Positions 23,914 to 59,917 of a DNA stretch of 64,000 bases are shown in pieces. The stretch is from Holophagae bacterium (GTDB lineage Bacteria > Acidobacteriota > Holophagae > Acanthopleuribacterales > Acanthopleuribacteraceae), in assembly GCA_029263455.1 (NCBI GenBank), contig JAJCXM010000034.1, positions 124,001-188,000 of the forward strand, read 5' to 3'. Each line of letters begins with the position of its first letter. The first letter of the stretch is position 1. The position numbers were made by a program, and so were the translations under genes. Below the pieces are notes generated by a model that was not told the DNA's origin, did not search any database, and saw only the letters and a list, made by a program, of their open reading frames with translations.

Positions 23914-26900
23914 CTATAGGCAGTCAACCATATCTGTCACCGAAATTGGGTTTGGCCAAAACTGAATTTGACTAAGTAGAGGCAAACACGTTGGTTCTTG
24001 TTTTGCCAGCACGCGGAAATCATCAACCGCGGCCTCCACGAGTGAAGACGAGCCAGAATCTTCTGCAACGAAGCGAACTTGTACGCTTGCATTAGGTACC
24101 AAGAAATCGGAAACCAAGAATCGATGTTTCAGCCATGATCCATTGGTACCAATGCCCGTGGGACCAATGGTCTCTACGTTCGTCCAGTCTGTGCCGTTAT
24201 TGGTGATATCGACTCGAAAAGTATCGTCGACAGCACTGCCAAATTTATTGGCAAACCAACGCCAATACTCGATTTCCGCATCGGGTTCGACGCTTAGGTC
24301 AAACACCGGTGAAATCAAGGTTGTTTTTCCACCCGAAACATCGTTTTCACTATTTGAGGACGGATCATTGCTTTGGCCAGTCACGAAAGCTCTAGTTCCA
24401 ACACCATCGGTATGGTCCAGTTCAGTTTGCAGTACCGTGCTAACAGGGTCAACTCGTGTCCATAGCCCCGCAGAAGCGGTGTCGTCACCTGCCCCGGCGG
24501 TCCAGCCCATATTGGACTCGAAATCGTCAGCAAAGATCTCTTCATCTTCCGTCACTTCGATGGCAAACAAAGAGGTTGGTGCTAGTTCTGGATAGGTTTG
24601 ACCTTGAACGGAAATATAAAATTCAGGCTGATAACCAATAGACATTGCCGGAATTTCGACGCTGTAAACATCACCACCCATGGCCGTCATTGGTAAGTTG
24701 ACGAATGCGCCTCCCATAATGCGAAAATGCAGGGTCGGCGTTCCAGAGAGTGTGCCAGTTCCTTCGGTCACATGGACCTGAATGGGGGTTGTCACTCCTT
24801 CAGCAATGGAAAGAGGGAATTCGGACGCAGGTGTCACATAAAAAGCTGGCAATGCTGCTTCAACAGGATGAGCGACTAACGCATAATCCACATCAACGAC
24901 GCCGTCCGACTCCGAGCGGTTATCAACCACGATATTGGCGGCAATCACTTCGACAATCCAGGTGCCTGGCGTTGGATTTTCAATCCAAACATTTTCAACT
25001 GTATCCAGAGTGTTGGCAACGCCGCCCGCCCTCGAAAAATTACCATCGGTGAGCCCGACATTGCCCCAATATATTTCGCCGCTCGGAGAGGTCACACGAA
25101 GATTAAGGTCGTTTATGGTGTGTAACGTTGCTGCTGGATTACCAGCCGGGTCCAAGAAAGTCATCGTCACGCGCAACTCGGGCTGTGAAGGCGAAACGGT
25201 CAAGGCGTAAACATTCTTTTCCAGGTTTTGTAGAACATCGGTCTCATCGACGATAAAGAAGTCGTCTCGATTATCGTAAAGTCGCTGCAGATCGCCACGG
25301 CCCCAACCTTGTTGGAAACGGCTCATGTCATCCGCTGCCCCTACAAATTCGTATTGCCATGCCGTGTTTATCATCATGGCCTTACCCGTGGTTAGGTGCG
25401 GTCGATTATCGAAGACAGTGGATCCGGGTGTGGCGTTACCGAAAATGCCGTCCGACCACATCTGGAAAAAGAGTCCATGCAAGCCACATGTGATTGGGGT
25501 CGCGCCACTGGTGCCGCCAAAATTACCGTAAGAGGTGGTGCTGCCGGTGGTTACGGTTAGTGTCGAATCATAAAAATGGCTTAAGTCTGGTTTGATTCTG
25601 CCGTCTGGAGCCGGACCAATGCTCGCCCCTCCGTCGTCCCAACTATCGTCGTCAGGTGTAAGTGTGTTGTGGTGGTCAAAGCCGCCTACAGACACCATGT
25701 TCTTCGCCCATGCCTGAGGCCTGGAGTCGCGCGTGCCCGAGTTACTTTGGCTTTGGCAGTGGAGTAAGTCGAAATCAAAGAGCATGGTATCTGAATCAGC
25801 AGATAGATTTGTATAGTTGGTTACACGCGGGGAACCCACGCTAGAGGTTTGAAACACGGCTTCGTAAGGAGCGGTTAGCAATTCGCCGGTTAAGTCGTAA
25901 CGTGACATGCCAGCTATCGGGACCGCCGTATATGCTGCGACAATGCCTTGCGCGTTGGGCATGAGGCCACGGGCCGCTGCATTACCCGTACCATCACCAA
26001 ATATGATTCCAGATGTCGCGGCGCCATGTGAAGCACTGCCAACGACTGTATGTTCAATCAATGGATCATGTTGGAAATCCACGTGCGTGACGTTGAACCC
26101 GGAGTCGAACACCTCCGCGCGAACGCCGGCACCGGTATATCCAGCAATGGTTTCAACATAGTTGGCGCCTGAATATTCGCGAACAATATCCATATCTTTT
26201 TCGTATTCGCCCCATGCATCTACAAACGAAACCTCATCCCAGTTAATCACTTCAATCAGTTGATTGGGCGTTAGACGGGCGGAGATCAGGTGGCGACCTG
26301 CATTGGCGGTCATCATTTCTGCGCCCAGCTGAGTGATCCTCAACGCAACATCGTCTTTTTGATCTTGATCGTGGTCAAACAGCCGTATGTTGTAGGCCAA
26401 TATTGGAAAAAGCGTCTCCGCAGTGCCGATATTATTAACAAAGTAAGGGTCCACCTTGAAGGCTGGCAAAAATGAACCAAACCAACGCACAAATGTGAGT
26501 GTGTTTAATCGGTCCGATATATTCTTCGGCATATTTACAATCAGAGCATTGGCCGGTAAATAGTCCAAAACTTCAGCACCTATCTGCGCAAGCGCCGCAC
26601 GATATTGAGGCAATGCAGGTGTGTGAAATTGAACGATAAACAAGTTCCCATCTGGGTTTGCACTGCTTAGATCTTCTACATTAACGGCATCTTTTAGAGG
26701 GTCAAAAGACAAGAGCCGTAAATGGAGATTGGTATCCGTCTGTCCTGTTTTGCGCAGGACACCACCCGAGAGGATCGCATAGTGTTCGCTACGATCCTGG
26801 CTAGCTGTCCAAGTCACCACGTGCAAATTATCGACGTTTATGACGCGCACAGCTTCAAAGGTGCCTTTGTTACTGGAAATTAGCGTCGGGCCCCATTTCA

Positions 26901-26982
26901 GATGCTGCTGTCCGTTATTGCTATGGATCGAGACTGAATTATCAGTAAACAAGAATAGACTTATGAGAAGCGGTAACGGCAT
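23914..26982 (-). CDS. secreted subtilisin-like (S8) serine protease
   Basis: This 1022-residue protein has a short signal peptide and a pro-region to about 270. The S8 catalytic domain has Asp293 in AEVFDSGFNVTH, His319 in SASHGAATSG and Ser492 in GGTSGATP. A beta-rich domain resembling a P/PPC-type domain (about 600-720), an Ig-like stretch and a jelly-roll/MAM-like domain (about 830-990, starting FADDFESNMGW) follow. All three catalytic residues are in standard context, so it should be active outside the cell on proteins. AGAGGA lies nine bases before the ATG. DUF3179 follows on the same strand. The C-terminus (WPNPISVTDMVDC) may be a lineage-specific tail. Confidence 0.88.
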   Translation of the reverse strand: MPLPLLISLFLFTDNSVSIHSNNGQQHLKWGPTLISSNKGTFEAVRVINVDNLHVVTWTASQDRSEHYAILSGGVLRKTGQTDTNLHLRLLSFDPLKDAVNVEDLSSANPDGNLFIVQFHTPALPQYRAALAQIGAEVLDYLPANALIVNMPKNISDRLNTLTFVRWFGSFLPAFKVDPYFVNNIGTAETLFPILAYNIRLFDHDQDQKDDVALRITQLGAEMMTANAGRHLISARLTPNQLIEVINWDEVSFVDAWGEYEKDMDIVREYSGANYVETIAGYTGAGVRAEVFDSGFNVTHVDFQHDPLIEHTVVGSASHGAATSGIIFGDGTGNAAARGLMPNAQGIVAAYTAVPIAGMSRYDLTGELLTAPYEAVFQTSSVGSPRVTNYTNLSADSDTMLFDFDLLHCQSQSNSGTRDSRPQAWAKNMVSVGGFDHHNTLTPDDDSWDDGGASIGPAPDGRIKPDLSHFYDSTLTVTTGSTTSYGNFGGTSGATPITCGLHGLFFQMWSDGIFGNATPGSTVFDNRPHLTTGKAMMINTAWQYEFVGAADDMSRFQQGWGRGDLQRLYDNRDDFFIVDETDVLQNLEKNVYALTVSPSQPELRVTMTFLDPAGNPAATLHTINDLNLRVTSPSGEIYWGNVGLTDGNFSRAGGVANTLDTVENVWIENPTPGTWIVEVIAANIVVDNRSESDGVVDVDYALVAHPVEAALPAFYVTPASEFPLSIAEGVTTPIQVHVTEGTGTLSGTPTLHFRIMGGAFVNLPMTAMGGDVYSVEIPAMSIGYQPEFYISVQGQTYPELAPTSLFAIEVTEDEEIFADDFESNMGWTAGAGDDTASAGLWTRVDPVSTVLQTELDHTDGVGTRAFVTGQSNDPSSNSENDVSGGKTTLISPVFDLSVEPDAEIEYWRWFANKFGSAVDDTFRVDITNNGTDWTNVETIGPTGIGTNGSWLKHRFLVSDFLVPNASVQVRFVAEDSGSSSLVEAAVDDFRVLAKQEPTCLPLLSQIQFWPNPISVTDMVDCL

Positions 26983-47128: not shown

Positions 47129-48595
47129 TTACCACTTATCAGTAGTTTGCGACAATTCGAACGACGTCACAGAATCAGCGATTAGCCAAGGTGGTTTAAG
47201 GCGCCGCATCAAGGAGCAAAGCTCGTCCTGCACCTGATTGACCGCCGCCGTCTCGCAACTATAGTTGTTGACCATGATCGAAAAAACAAGCGGTTCTCCG
47301 GCCATTGTTTCAACGTAACCAGATAAACAGCGGGCGCGATAGATATAGCCGGTTTTGGCCCACACAAATCCCCTAGTGATCTCGTTCCCGCGACGTTTGA
47401 GCGTCCCATCCATGCCAAAAACTGGAAAGGAGACAAGCCAGTCATGCGAAAATGACGTGTCTAGTGCTCTATTGAGTACATCAACTAATAAAGCAGGTCG
47501 AATGTAGTTTTGAGCACTGAGCCCCGAGCCGTCACGAATACTCAGACCCTGTGTATCTAACCCTTCGAACTCAAGCTGACGCTTCACTGTTTCGGAGAAG
47601 GCATCAAAACTTCCTGTCCCCGACGACATATAAGCAGCACTTTTTGCAAAGCAGTCAGCATAACGATTCTGGGAAATTTTCATCATCGTTTGCATTAGCA
47701 GCCGCAATGGTTCTGAATAGTAAGTGAACAGCGGTTTCGCATCTAATGGCCAATTCTGAATGGAACGCCAGCTGCCTTCCACTTGTATTCCGTTTTGCTC
47801 CAATCGAGACATCAACGAATTGGCGAAACTAGCAGCCGGATTCTTGACTGCCATGGTTATTTGAGACTGAGAACACGAAGCCAGTGATCCCGTGATCCTA
47901 AAACTACCATCGAAGGTGCGTTGCAGGTCTAAATCTGTAGAGTCGCCGTGGACCAAATCAAAACGAAACGGCGTGCGCACATAAGCAGGCACGAAATGGT
48001 ATCGGGCTGAGCCATTTTCGTCCGTCTCAATGTTCAAAACACTCCAAGCATCATTCATGGCTAACGCATTAACCGCCGCACCATAGTAGGCACCGAGGTC
48101 ACTTATCTCCCACGATCCATCCTCCAACTCAGCATCGAACGAGCCTTCGTAAGTCAGTAGATTGCCCGAAACAGACCGGATCCCGGCGGTGCGCAGACGT
48201 TCAATCAAACTGTCAATAAGCGTGCCGGTTTCAAGTCCGTCGACATAATTACCACTCAAACTTGGGTCACCCCATCCGGCGATTACCAGGTCACCGAGCA
48301 ATTCACCATCGGTATGCTCGCCAACAAATGCAAATTCGGTTGGGTAGGCGTAGCTTGCACCAAGAACTTGAAAAGCTGTGTATGCGGTTAGGATTTTCAT
48401 ATTGGATGCGGGCCGGAAATTTACCCTTGCGTTGATATCCAGCAGTGTTTTTTCGCGTCGCGGAGCATATATCGAAATGCCCCAAACACCGTCGGCAAGC
48501 TCGGGACGCGTCAAAACTTGTTTTACTTCCTTTCGAAGGTTCCTAACCGAAAGGTCGCTACCCGAAACTAAAACCATACACAGAATGCAGATCAT
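47129..48595 (-). CDS. dacB: D-alanyl-D-alanine carboxypeptidase/endopeptidase, PBP4 (S13) type
   Basis: This 488-residue penicillin-binding protein starts with a signal peptide (MICILCMVLVSGS). Its active-site motifs are S-x-x-K in ASNMK (Ser64, Lys67), S-x-N in ISQNRYAD and K-T-G in VWAKTGYIYRA. It removes terminal D-Ala and can cut cross-links in peptidoglycan. The start codon lies two bases after the alr stop, so alr-dacB are co-translated. It belongs to the wall-turnover cluster of 47-54 kb. Confidence 0.9.
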   Translation of the reverse strand: MICILCMVLVSGSDLSVRNLRKEVKQVLTRPELADGVWGISIYAPRREKTLLDINARVNFRPASNMKILTAYTAFQVLGASYAYPTEFAFVGEHTDGELLGDLVIAGWGDPSLSGNYVDGLETGTLIDSLIERLRTAGIRSVSGNLLTYEGSFDAELEDGSWEISDLGAYYGAAVNALAMNDAWSVLNIETDENGSARYHFVPAYVRTPFRFDLVHGDSTDLDLQRTFDGSFRITGSLASCSQSQITMAVKNPAASFANSLMSRLEQNGIQVEGSWRSIQNWPLDAKPLFTYYSEPLRLLMQTMMKISQNRYADCFAKSAAYMSSGTGSFDAFSETVKRQLEFEGLDTQGLSIRDGSGLSAQNYIRPALLVDVLNRALDTSFSHDWLVSFPVFGMDGTLKRRGNEITRGFVWAKTGYIYRARCLSGYVETMAGEPLVFSIMVNNYSCETAAVNQVQDELCSLMRRLKPPWLIADSVTSFELSQTTDKW

Positions 48596-54321: not shown

Positions 54322-55539
54322 TCAGTCATGAAGCGTATCTCTGCGTCGCTGGGTGAAGAAGGTGGCAATCTCACTAGCTCGTCTTATGGCGACCGCAAGT
54401 TCCGATGCCGATTGCTGAGCCTTGTTCTTCAGATCAAAATCTGCCCCCGCCTCTACTAATATTTTCACTTGATCCAGTTGATTCAAACGAACAGCAAGCA
54501 TAAGTGCAGTGTCACCAGCCAAGTCCTGATGATTGGGATTAGCACCCTTGTTCAAAAGAAGCTTAACTATTTCTCCTTGAGAATGGTTGGTCGCATAAAA
54601 GAGGGCTGTCTGTCCAAGGACATCACCGTGCTCAATATCGGCCTTTTTCAGGGCACGTTTCAATAATTTTTGATCACCGATTGAACTAGCAAAATGCAAC
54701 GTTACCAGCCAATCGTCACTAGGTTCAAATGACCTTGAACCATTATCTTGTAGCCGAGCTAATAGATTTTCGTCGCTGTTCAGGCGCCCTATCATGACGA
54801 GCGACCAACCAAATTCATCGCGACAATTAAGGTCGGCTCCGTTCGCAATCAATAAATCAAACGTTTCAAGTTCACCCCGCTTGTAGGCCAAAGTTAGAGC
54901 ATGAGGGCCCTGTTTTACTTGTTTATTGACGTTTGCGCCAGCTTTGATCAAAGCTTTAACCATCTTAATTGAATTAGCGTGCATTAGCGCGGTCATTCCC
55001 TTGGTATCAGTTTGATCAAGCTGCGCTTCGGCCCCAATGAGACGGTTCAAACACGCGATTCGAATACCTTGGGCTGCAGTCATTAATGCCGTTTCGCCGC
55101 TTTGATTGGGTTGATTGACATCTGCGCCAGCTTTGAGCAGTAAATCAATCGATTCGATGAACCCTACACGCGCGGCGATCATCAAGTTTGTGTCTCCTTC
55201 ACCATTTAACGTATCAAGATAAGCGCCAGCATCAATGATGGTGCCCACAACCGATGTGACGCCTAATCGAAGGGCCATCTGCAACGCATTGTCACCGCGA
55301 CCGTTTGCAAACTCGGGATCACAACCCAGTTTCAGCAGAAAGGCTACGGCATCGGCTGATCCGCTTAAGATGGCATAATGAATAGGCGAATAACCTCTAA
55401 GAGGGTCCGATGATTGCAAATCTGCACCGGAGGCTATCGCCGCTTTCATTCCAGCCACGTTGCCAGAGGATGCTGCTTCAGCTAGTAGCAAATTGGAATC
55501 AGATTGAATTAAAGTAAGTAGTAGAAAAAGCGTAATCAC
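54322..55539 (-). CDS. secreted ankyrin-repeat protein
   Basis: This 405-residue protein has a signal peptide (MITLFLLLTLIQSDSN) and about eleven ankyrin repeats of the L-L-x-A-G-A-D-x-N type (such as LLKAGADVNQPNQSGETALM and LLNKGANPNHQDLAGDTALM). Two repeats in the middle (about 240-300) are diverged. It probably binds a protein partner outside the cytoplasm. The stop lies four bases from the convergent M20 gene's stop, and the start is divergent from the secreted operon at 55.7 kb. Confidence 0.87.
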   Translation of the reverse strand: MITLFLLLTLIQSDSNLLLAEAASSGNVAGMKAAIASGADLQSSDPLRGYSPIHYAILSGSADAVAFLLKLGCDPEFANGRGDNALQMALRLGVTSVVGTIIDAGAYLDTLNGEGDTNLMIAARVGFIESIDLLLKAGADVNQPNQSGETALMTAAQGIRIACLNRLIGAEAQLDQTDTKGMTALMHANSIKMVKALIKAGANVNKQVKQGPHALTLAYKRGELETFDLLIANGADLNCRDEFGWSLVMIGRLNSDENLLARLQDNGSRSFEPSDDWLVTLHFASSIGDQKLLKRALKKADIEHGDVLGQTALFYATNHSQGEIVKLLLNKGANPNHQDLAGDTALMLAVRLNQLDQVKILVEAGADFDLKNKAQQSASELAVAIRRASEIATFFTQRRRDTLHD

Positions 55540-55754: not shown

Positions 55755-57254
55755 ATGCCTATTTGTTTTTTACTCTTCATGCAGATCACAGAAAGCGATC
55801 AAGATCTGCTTGCTCCTTTTAGGCTCGCCTATTGGGATTACACCCTCCATCTCGGCAACTATCAGGCGGACGAACGATACACGTACTCAGTAGAAGGTGA
55901 ACAGACCCTCGAGCAGGATTCGATATTCATTTATTACGAGCACGGTTTTCCTCAACTGCAGGTCAACGAATTCCATCTACCGAACAATGATCGATTCGTT
56001 TTTTTTAAACGCATGCGCGCCGCTAACAAGAATGATCGAGCTATAGCCGAACTACGCTCGATAAACGAAGAATGGACACGAAATTACGCGAACTTGCCCG
56101 ACATTACCTTTATCCTACCCAATGTTCCCTTCCTAAACCGTCAAAAGATGGCCTATTTTGACTATGCTGTTGATGAACACCCAAATGAACTGCCCAGTGG
56201 TTCATTATTGCGATTTACCGATGATTTGGGCCATTCAGGCACGCTCTTGATTGACGAAAACAAACGGCTCGTTGAACTCAAGCAATGGCTACCCCTGACG
56301 CAACCGCAAAATGCCTTTCTCAGTGTGTCGATTCATTTTGAATCCACGCCAAGCGGTGTACTCTTCGTTTCTAAAGCTGAGCGGAGAGCCACACTAGAAG
56401 CTCAGGAATTATGGCGAGACACATGGTCATGGTCGGATCCACGCTCAATTCGCCCATCGATGAGTCTTGGGAAATCGCTAGATGCGACTAAGCCCATCGA
56501 CATCGAATTACTACTTGCCCTCTCAAATGAGGTCAGCGAATACGATCGTCAGCTCGCTCAAGTAAGCTCTATTGAAAGAAAAGAGATGGTTGTGAGAGAC
56601 GGCGCGAAAACAACCAAGCGCACGGTTGTATCTGAATTTCTTGTCGTTCCTCTGGATCGCAGCCCTAACGAACGTGTTGAATTAAGAATCGTGCAAACGG
56701 TTGATGGCAAGAAAGTCAATTTGCAGGATGACTTGATCGATCTCATGAGCCGGGATTTTAGCGATCGGCGTGATGAAATTAGGCGAATCAATGAATTTTC
56801 AGACCAATTTGATTTAGGTGGTAGCCCACACGGTTTCACCATTAATCAAGCGGCTTGCTTCAACGATGAGTGGCTTGGCCTTTTTCAGCATCAAACCGAA
56901 CAACAAACGCTAGGCGGACGAAACTTTACGGTTGTAACATCCGTACAAACTCGTGGACGTGGTTTGATCAGGGGTGGTCTGCTCGCGTTTCGACCCAAGT
57001 TCGTTACATATGTAAACGAGTCTGGTACCATGACTCGAGTCGAAACCACCTATGACATGACGCGTCCTTATCGAACGCGCATTGTCATCGATTATTTGAG
57101 GAACATGGATCAAATCACTTACCCTTCTTACATCGAGCACACCGTTTACCGCGGTGACACGATTGTTGAGGAGATTAAGTACGACTACTCCGAATTCGAA
57201 AAAATCAAAGTCAAGGTTGAGACACAAGTCCAAACGGACGATGTAAGAAACTAA
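55755..57254 (+). CDS. secreted protein, unknown, first gene of the secreted operon
   Basis: This 499-residue protein has a short hydrophobic start (MPICFLLFMQITES) and then a mixed acidic/aromatic mature part with many charged beta-strand segments. The middle (about 280-350) is rich in Glu and Arg. No family motif is recognised. ATG 55755 is supported by a weak TTGGA and by the promoter position; the longer frame has no signal-like start. The VWFA-related gene follows after nine bases, so a joint envelope role is likely. Confidence 0.65.
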   Translation: MPICFLLFMQITESDQDLLAPFRLAYWDYTLHLGNYQADERYTYSVEGEQTLEQDSIFIYYEHGFPQLQVNEFHLPNNDRFVFFKRMRAANKNDRAIAELRSINEEWTRNYANLPDITFILPNVPFLNRQKMAYFDYAVDEHPNELPSGSLLRFTDDLGHSGTLLIDENKRLVELKQWLPLTQPQNAFLSVSIHFESTPSGVLFVSKAERRATLEAQELWRDTWSWSDPRSIRPSMSLGKSLDATKPIDIELLLALSNEVSEYDRQLAQVSSIERKEMVVRDGAKTTKRTVVSEFLVVPLDRSPNERVELRIVQTVDGKKVNLQDDLIDLMSRDFSDRRDEIRRINEFSDQFDLGGSPHGFTINQAACFNDEWLGLFQHQTEQQTLGGRNFTVVTSVQTRGRGLIRGGLLAFRPKFVTYVNESGTMTRVETTYDMTRPYRTRIVIDYLRNMDQITYPSYIEHTVYRGDTIVEEIKYDYSEFEKIKVKVETQVQTDDVRN

Positions 57255-57263
57255 GGAGCCTTT

Positions 57264-58799
57264 ATGATTGCGACCACATTATTGCTCTCGTTGTTTTGGG
57301 TGCAAGATGTGCACGAAGAGTTAGAGGTCCGCTTGGTGGAGCTCGACGTTCGTGTCGTTAACTTATTACATAAGCCGGTCAACGGCTTAGACCGTGGTCT
57401 ATTCGCTGTTCGTGAAAATGGGAAAGAGCGAAACATCGACCATTTTGAGGAAATAAGTTACCTAGAAATGCAACCTGGCGATGCCTATGAATCACCTCGT
57501 CTTTTGATTTTGTTCAACTTCATGGACGACCCAAATCAGGTGTCCAAGTACATAGACAAAGTAGAATCTTATCTGCTTTACAAGGAGACTGGCGCCTGGC
57601 AAGTTGCTATCGGATACGTAGCGCGCGAAGGCGTGAGGTTACTATCGCCTTTTACCCACGAACAAACACATTGGATCGAGGGCATTCTCGCTACTCGAGA
57701 AGCCTATCGAAATTGGAATGACCGTACGCTTTACACAACCGCTAATGCACGCGCCAAAGAAGATGTCACACGTCGAGAATCCGGGGATTACGGATTCGAA
57801 ACCAATACACGTGCGCCAGAATCGACCGACGATTCGGGCGTGGCGGAGCCAACCCTGCCCGTCTCCCCTTTCGGAAATAAAGAAGTCACTTTTGCCGAAA
57901 AAGAATCACCGGCCATGGATTTGGATCCACGTGCACTTTCCCGATTCATTCGCCTGTTAACAGCGTACGACGGCATTAAGGAAGTCTTGGTCATCGGACC
58001 AGAACTATGGTCATTTGAAGACGATTCGGACGAACATTGGATAAAAACACCTGTACCTGAATTCGTTCGACCCAGTAGCCTGTCGGCCTATTCGTCAAGC
58101 AACCGGTCTGGTGATTTAAAGTCGGGCGACCAAACGGCTTTCGATTTACAAGAAATGTTGACGAACTGCGTGAAGAGCAAAATACGACTCAATCGTCTGC
58201 AAACAGAAGTTACCCTACGAGACAATCTGGTGAGTGCAACAGGAGGATCGACGTACCCTTGCAATAACAATGGCATCCATGAAGCGATCGACCGCTTCCT
58301 TGATCGCGCCGGTCATATGTATCGACTTAGATATTCTACTGAAGTCAAGACCAATGACTTTAAGTACCGACGCGTAAAAGTTGGGGTAAAGGGCTTAAAT
58401 CTCATTACAGAGCATGTCAATCGCTTCTATCCAGCACTTCTCATTGACCGCAATGAATTATCATCCAACCTAGACGTTCAGCGCGAAAAGATGACTTTTG
58501 TTTATGCGCTTCCTTGGGATAGTTTGTTTTTTGAAAAGTCAGGAAAAGAGTTGACCGCCCAACTTGCTGTATCGCAGCGCATCTACCTTGATCATCGCTT
58601 GGTTTTCGAAAACGTGCGCGTGTTTAACCCCAAGAAGCCAGTCAAGGTTAATCGGGGGAACTCCAATTTGACCGAAGACAAGTTAAGCATCGAGTTTGAC
58701 TTGCCAGTCTATGAAGAAGGTATCTACCGAGTTGAGTTCAGCTCCGTAGATCTTGTAAATGGGGCTAAGAGCAATCAGTCCGTTACGGTTGAGTTGTAA
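57264..58799 (+). CDS. VWFA-related (acidobacterial type) secreted protein with degenerate MIDAS
   Basis: This 511-residue protein begins with a signal-like helix (MIATTLLLSLFWVQ), then the entry strand VRLVELDVRVVNLLHKPVNG and LFAVRENGKERNIDHFEE typical of acidobacterial VWFA-related proteins. The next strand, RLLILFNFMDDPNQV, stands where family members normally have a metal-binding F-D-D or D-x-S-x-S; Asn and Phe replace the usual Asp. The rest is extended and acidic with repeated charged strands. AAGGAG precedes the ATG. It lies between the unknown secreted gene and the transglutaminase-like gene. Confidence 0.75.
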   Translation: MIATTLLLSLFWVQDVHEELEVRLVELDVRVVNLLHKPVNGLDRGLFAVRENGKERNIDHFEEISYLEMQPGDAYESPRLLILFNFMDDPNQVSKYIDKVESYLLYKETGAWQVAIGYVAREGVRLLSPFTHEQTHWIEGILATREAYRNWNDRTLYTTANARAKEDVTRRESGDYGFETNTRAPESTDDSGVAEPTLPVSPFGNKEVTFAEKESPAMDLDPRALSRFIRLLTAYDGIKEVLVIGPELWSFEDDSDEHWIKTPVPEFVRPSSLSAYSSSNRSGDLKSGDQTAFDLQEMLTNCVKSKIRLNRLQTEVTLRDNLVSATGGSTYPCNNNGIHEAIDRFLDRAGHMYRLRYSTEVKTNDFKYRRVKVGVKGLNLITEHVNRFYPALLIDRNELSSNLDVQREKMTFVYALPWDSLFFEKSGKELTAQLAVSQRIYLDHRLVFENVRVFNPKKPVKVNRGNSNLTEDKLSIEFDLPVYEEGIYRVEFSSVDLVNGAKSNQSVTVEL

Positions 58800-58867
58800 A
58801 CTCAACAATCATTTCTACGTAGGAATAGTTAGTGTCGCAAGGGTGTTGATGGCTTAAGGAGAACTAG

Positions 58868-59917
58868 ATGAATACAAGTTGGATCATTTGTTTTTGTGTA
58901 CTGCCTTTTTTTTCTCAGCCAGAACAGGTTGATCCGCTTCAAGTTAGTCCGCAGATGAAGGAATTTGTTCATCAGCGCGTTGGCCACATCAAGAACCCTT
59001 TTCTGAAAGTACACCGTCTAGTTGAAGCGATCTTTGACGAAAACGACCTTAACCTCACCTATTCACTTGAATTGACACAGACGGCGCAGGAGACCTTCAT
59101 CAAACGGGCAGGCAACTGCTTGTCATTCACCAATATGTTTGTAGCACTCTCTAGAGAGGCTGGCTTCAAGACTTACTTCAAAGAAGTAAACGACATCGCC
59201 ACCTGGGACCGACGTCAGAACGTCATTTTTCATCATAAACACATGGTTGCGAGCGTTTATATTGATGGCCGCTTGATTGACATCGATTTTTATCCATTCC
59301 GCGAAAAAGAATATCGACTGACTAGAGTCATCAACGACAAAAGAGCTCGAGCCCACTACTACAACAATCTGGGCGCCGAAAAATACGCAGATGGCGATTA
59401 TGATCAGGCCGAATCTTACTTCAGCAAGGCCATGGAACTTGACTCCCGCCTTTCACAGGTGGTGCTCAATATGGGCGTCATGTGCAATCGACGCGGTGAC
59501 CAAGGACGGGCCATCTCCCTTTTTGAACAGGTTCTTGAAGAACAGCCCCGCAATATTCCCGCGTTAACCAATCTGGCTAGCCTATATCAAACCAATGGCC
59601 AGCGCGATCTTGCGCAAAGAATGATTCGCGCACTTGATATTTATCGAAACAAGAACCCCTATTTTTATCACATGATGGGTGAACAGGCCTTTGCCGATAG
59701 CAACTACAAGGAAGCTTTGGATTATTTCCGAAAAGCCGTCAAGTTACACCCAAGAGAACCGATATTCCACATCGGATTGGGCAAGACCTACCACCGGCTC
59801 TCAAACATATTGGCTGCTGATGATGCATTTGCTGATGCCATGAGCCGTGCTTCTGAACGCGACGAATTGGATCGATTCCAAACCCAAATAACACAGGTCA
59901 AAGAATCGCTTAAATAG
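58868..59917 (+). CDS. transglutaminase-like plus TPR secreted protein
   Basis: This 349-residue protein has a signal peptide (MNTSWIICFCVLPFFS). A transglutaminase-like core carries Cys84 in RAGNCLSFTNMFVALSREAG, His125 in HKHMVASVYIDG and Asp140 in LIDIDFYPF, matching a Cys-His-Asp triad. Four or more TPRs follow (about 160-335: YYNNLGAEKYADGDYDQA and similar). This arrangement resembles proteases or cross-linkers held in a scaffold. AAGGAG precedes the ATG by seven bases. It is 68 bases after the VWFA-related gene and ends six bases from the convergent rsmE. Confidence 0.82.
   Translation: MNTSWIICFCVLPFFSQPEQVDPLQVSPQMKEFVHQRVGHIKNPFLKVHRLVEAIFDENDLNLTYSLELTQTAQETFIKRAGNCLSFTNMFVALSREAGFKTYFKEVNDIATWDRRQNVIFHHKHMVASVYIDGRLIDIDFYPFREKEYRLTRVINDKRARAHYYNNLGAEKYADGDYDQAESYFSKAMELDSRLSQVVLNMGVMCNRRGDQGRAISLFEQVLEEQPRNIPALTNLASLYQTNGQRDLAQRMIRALDIYRNKNPYFYHMMGEQAFADSNYKEALDYFRKAVKLHPREPIFHIGLGKTYHRLSNILAADDAFADAMSRASERDELDRFQTQITQVKESLK

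Follow-up and report, generated by a model that had tools for sequence, protein, structure and literature searches.

P1C, a domain named here for residues ~245–499 of the first protein in a three-gene run, is occasionally fused to or adjoins VWFA domains in acidobacteria outside the genus that holds the run, and none of these VWFA domains has a canonical MIDAS where the motif is readable. This association is new here. The run lies in the window, meaning the whole stretch of 64,000 nucleotides analysed, on contig C34 of the 6.25 Mb source genome (G000). Its genes and their products are called P1, P2 and P3 in order; G001 denotes the other genome of the same genus and G002–G006 a further five from the same family. 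The preferred explanation, which is given about an even chance, is that P1 and P2 are two halves of an extracytoplasmic module and that P3 is a diverged paralogue that joined the run in this genus. A P1–P2 envelope module is moderately supported, and its best-supported part is the P1–P2 link itself, the pairing of P1C with MIDAS-degenerate acidobacterial VWFA domains. The features of the run are as follows.

55755–57254, plus strand: P1, 499 aa, defined by its open reading frame (ORF), its relatives, a 36-row alignment and an hhalign comparison of its N-terminal half.
57255–57263, plus strand: P1/P2 gap of 9 bases with a Shine–Dalgarno-like AGGAG; the G001 gap is also 9 bases.
57264–58799, plus strand: P2, 511 aa, TIGR03436-like over residues 21–377, with a degenerate MIDAS and ~100 C-terminal residues without a family.
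58800–58867, plus strand: P2/P3 gap of 68 bases with a Shine–Dalgarno-like AAGGAG; the G001 gap is 117 bases.
58868–59917, plus strand: P3, 349 aa, with Transglut_core at residues ~37–135 (Pfam) and TPRs from ~160.

The three plus-strand ORFs form one run and are separated by 9 and 68 bases, as the original prediction had described, and they may be co-transcribed. The ORF finder permits an upstream extension of P1 to 55662; the start was put at 55755, in agreement with where the G001 protein begins in the alignment. A consensus scan upstream of P1 returned no promoter. A terminator between P2 and P3 was considered and rejected: the hairpin at 58788–58806 has no poly-T tail, the region holds no excess of such sites over chance (9 found against 6.9 expected), and no such hairpin was seen in G001.

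Export of all three proteins had also been predicted, and this claim stands in part. Their homologues carry ordinary-looking signal peptides, as judged by eye, but their own N-termini are short and uncharged; P1, P2 and P3 are probably exported. Very short hydrophobic N-termini with no basic residue ahead, unlike textbook signal peptides (judged by eye; for example MITLFLLLTLIQSD and MIATTLLLSLFWVQD), occur in the products of the genes that start at 55755, 57264 and 58868, and in those at 54322–55539, 47129–48595 and 23914–26982, all three on the minus strand. The gene at 54322–55539 is divergent to the trio and encodes an ankyrin-repeat protein, whose G001 counterpart is 36% identical.

P1 had been described as a protein without recognised relatives. 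This proved wrong, as P1 alone matches two genomes of family f22, which belongs to another class. With P1 as the query, matches were found in 4 of 150 genomes, namely G000, G001 (56% identity) and the two f22 genomes, in which the matches are confined to P1 residues 259–401. Among 297 genomes of the phylum, 42 were then matched by a four-row P1C profile (E ≤ 1e-5), with 78 matches in total; 76 of these are genes from 40 genomes outside the genus, and G000 and G001 account for the rest. A 36-row profile matched 36 of 199 genomes at E ≤ 1e-10, and P1 scored E 1.3e-49 against it, in an alignment that includes P1 itself. P1 has no significant Pfam or NCBIfam match, ten P1C members yielded no convincing Pfam family, and all 36 members scanned singly against Pfam produced isolated weak matches only. 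On these profile searches, P1C is a domain family of acidobacteria for which the Pfam and NCBIfam searches found no model. Residues 245–499 of P1 share motifs with this family, such as a V-D-G stretch and Y..F near the end. P1 differs from it in sequence, being ~19–25% identical to most rows with a few insertions or losses, and in having an additional N-terminal half.

The N-terminal half of P1 itself resembles P1C. Comparison by hhalign of its profile, which consists of two sequences only, with the P1C family gave a score of 38.4 over 167 columns (P 6.6e-5, probability 64%), and a score of 36.7 (P 1.3e-4) when the two genus members were left out. Controls scored lower: column shuffles reached at most 20.3 (n = 100), reversal of the halves gave 13.7 and 12.3, and three unrelated alignments gave 18.9, 17.3 and 13.6. 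The N-terminal half in reverse scored 11.4 and 23.5 when set against unrelated alignments, the latter being the top non-shuffle control. Residues ~16–196 look like a diverged second P1C copy, and the match and its controls together make a tandem duplication within P1 likely, though not proven.

Profile comparison yields a lead on the fold of P1C. Sequence searches of solved structures returned none up to E 1 with the four-row P1C profile and a best E of 1.3 with the 36-row profile. Structure prediction for P1 from three rows reached a mean pLDDT of 36.4, which is very low confidence, and the regular helix/strand repeat in the model was set aside as evidence. Against 25 LolA_like sequences collected with PF17131, P1C gave an hhalign score of 32.8 over 83 columns (P 0.0011, probability 20%), compared with controls of up to 18.1 and with 14.2 for the N-terminal half of P1. 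Among the 36 members scanned singly, one matched LolA_like (E 0.027) and one MucB_RseB (PF03888; E 0.1), and a stronger single-member match was to an unrelated phage tail terminator family (E 0.0016). The likeness is thus a weak profile match of P1C to the LolA_like set, but P1C has no significant Pfam match and the N-terminal half of P1 does not share the likeness. A relationship of P1C to LolA/RseB is suggested as a lead only.

P2 matches TIGR03436 (acidobact_VWFA) with E 8.6e-19 over residues 21–377, in agreement with its description as VWFA-like. The match covers profile positions 6–310 of 324, but at 68.2 bits (68.5 in the genome search) it falls below the curated cut-off of 81.25. P2 further departs from the family in reading N-F-M-D-D at the MIDAS and in its ~100 extra C-terminal residues, and by these comparisons it is a diverged acidobacterial VWFA protein. 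The missing MIDAS that had been pointed out (FNFMDD at the MIDAS position, without D-x-S-x-S) is real but not unusual. The TIGR03436 family is expanded in G000, with 18 matches at E ≤ 0.001, of which 11 exceed the cut-off, and 15 at E ≤ 1e-8; D-x-S-x-S is present in 7 of these 15 and absent from the other 8, P2 included. The motif occurs in 13 members of a 20-sequence TIGR03436 reference set, picked from the best-scoring among the matches listed. Six P2 homologues from G002–G006 read D-x-x-N-T or D-x-x-N-S, and this retention of the first Asp indicates that it was lost in this genus. Solved structures gave no match to P2 up to E 1 in a sequence search, and structure prediction from two rows had very low confidence (mean pLDDT 27.7). 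A TIGR03436 gene with a canonical MIDAS lies at C34:192007–192804 of G000, ~4 kb past the right end of the window.

TIGR03436-type VWFA genes are numerous in acidobacteria, each of 42 genomes having between 8 and 36 matches. In a passage of one paper, the Solibacter paralogues listed include a VWF type A gene (PMC3174227). In the literature searched, neither TIGR03436 nor the phrase 'VWFA-related Acidobacterial domain' occurs in any paper. The recurrent fusion partner P1C offers the first handle here on a possible role of one VWFA sub-group, and P1C is itself a domain family fit for database entry and testing.

Within the genus, G001 carries the trio in the same order, with identities of 56, 72 and 75% for P1, P2 and P3. 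The G001 trio is uninterrupted and has one extra ORF on either flank. Eight genes flanking the trio are also syntenic between G000 and G001, so synteny of the trio alone says little. In G002–G006, P2-type and P3-type genes are found at different loci and do not adjoin in the stretches fetched, and no convincing P1 was found in these five genomes, G006 giving one weak partial match (E 0.008). The predicted co-occurrence of all three genes therefore holds for G001, in a block with syntenic flanks, but not for the rest of the family, in which the P2 and P3 types are apart. The three could then be unrelated envelope genes that are chance neighbours in a genus-syntenic block, with P1 working alone, P2 being one VWFA paralogue of many and P3 a paralogue that has relocated. 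The separation of P2-type and P3-type genes in all five other family genomes and the syntenic flanks favour this account, as does the frequency of such genes, since with 18 TIGR03436 matches and three P3-type genes in G000 (G001 also has three of the latter) chance proximity is not rare. It is considered a possible but less probable explanation.

Stretches around all 76 P1C genes outside the genus (75 loci) were fetched, and their ORFs were searched with local P1C, VWFA, P2 and P3 profiles; several stretches are cut off by the end of a contig, and some neighbours may therefore have gone unseen. P1C is fused to VWFA in one ORF in three of the 76 genes (L102, L104 and L129). In an NCBIfam search, TIGR03436 scored above cut-off in L104 (165.8 bits) and L129 (88.3 bits) and below it in L102 (68.6 bits). 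As L102 (G311) and L129 (G222) come from one genus, they may represent one fusion event. A VWFA gene directly adjoins P1C on the same strand in another three (L098, L131 and L138): the two ORFs overlap in L098, a 103-base gap separates them in L138, and in L131 VWFA-like genes lie on both sides, the upstream match being weak (E 6.5e-6). At L131, the VWFA-like genes form a one-strand run around the P1C gene, which itself appears in two overlapping frames. The expected number of same-strand adjacencies is 0.43, giving a Poisson P of 0.009 for at least three, on the assumption of one gene per kilobase with 60% on the same strand and with genome kinship ignored. At four more loci (L139, L152, L155 and L178) the stretch includes a VWFA gene, though not one adjacent to P1C on the same strand. 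Further fusions were considered in the large ORFs of L134, L141, L149, L154, L170 and L171; their extensions have no Pfam match and look by eye like non-coding read-through, and they were not counted for this reason. The ORFs of L132 and L165 likewise had no Pfam match.

A readable MIDAS position is present in seven linked VWFA domains: P2, the fused L102, L104 and L129, those at L098 and L138, and the gene upstream of P1C in L131. The gene downstream of P1C in L131 could not be read, its match being confined to a later part. D-x-S-x-S occurs in 0 of these 7, compared with 13/20 in the reference set and 7/15 in G000, a comparison made after seeing the data. The divergent VWFA neighbour of P1C in L178 has a canonical MIDAS (D-V-S-D-S), against this pattern.

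These fusions and adjacencies argue against unrelated neighbours, as does the 9-base P1/P2 gap kept in both genus genomes. On the other side, 70 of the 76 P1C genes have neither a fused nor a same-strand adjacent VWFA in the stretch fetched, which makes the P1C–VWFA link occasional and fits the account of unrelated genes.

In the preferred explanation of a P1–P2 module, P2 would be a VWFA protein without canonical metal binding that serves as a protein-binding platform. P1 would be its beta-rich partner, built from two domains of the P1C type that may be LolA/RseB-like, and would sense or hold a ligand that is either hydrophobic or a protein; the two proteins may form a complex. Some other acidobacteria have both parts in a single polypeptide, and here they are the products of separate, probably co-translated genes. 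The wider proposal, that Acidobacteriota possess a two-part, metal-independent module of a MIDAS-less VWFA and the undescribed, putatively beta-rich P1C, to which this genus has added a transglutaminase-like enzyme, is tentative and rather doubtful as a whole.

P3 matches Transglut_core (Pfam PF01841) with 27.9 bits against a gathering cut-off of 23, followed by TPRs, and the triad of Cys84, His125 and Asp140 lies at the positions originally assigned. As in PF01841 proteins with TPRs, the triad positions are occupied, and they are invariant in all 14 aligned sequences (P3, its G001 orthologue, two G000 paralogues, five sequences from the family and five from the class). In the tree of these sequences, P3 and its G001 orthologue sit together on a long branch (1.57), and their place among the paralogues is uncertain. 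Of 61 genomes searched with P3, 54 contain a match at E ≤ 1e-10, in some cases over the TPRs alone. In the best 60 of 114 matches of solved structures to P3, the best stretches lie in or mainly in the TPR part. No description of the P3 sub-family was found in the literature searched.

The original prediction joined the three proteins in a possible cross-linking or proteolytic envelope system with an adhesive scaffold. In the version considered here, P2 would be the scaffold on which P3 cross-links or cleaves proteins of the envelope or surface, and P1 would be the substrate or the adhesive part. The invariant Cys-His-Asp triad in a Transglut_core domain is consistent with such chemistry, and the three-gene run is kept in both genus genomes. 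However, this genus (2 of 2 genomes) is the only place where P3 was seen to adjoin P1 and P2: the stretches around the 76 P1C genes (75 loci) outside it contain no P3-type gene, and in the family P3 is not beside the P2 homologues. No adhesion-related domain was found, nor anything else in favour of an adhesive scaffold or of cross-linking by the trio. Members of the transglutaminase-like superfamily are also peptidases more often than cross-linkers. The data point only weakly to a three-part cross-linking system, which is judged improbable.

Under the module explanation, P3 would instead be a TPR-bearing thiol enzyme from the transglutaminase-like superfamily. As a diverged paralogue, it would have become the last of the three genes in this genus, and it may act on envelope proteins by processing or modifying them. 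Its place in the run appears genus-specific, and any role for it there is a guess. The P3-type genes of L037, L039 and L040, from three genomes of the family, each lie between what are presumably arginine decarboxylase-like and uvrB-like genes.
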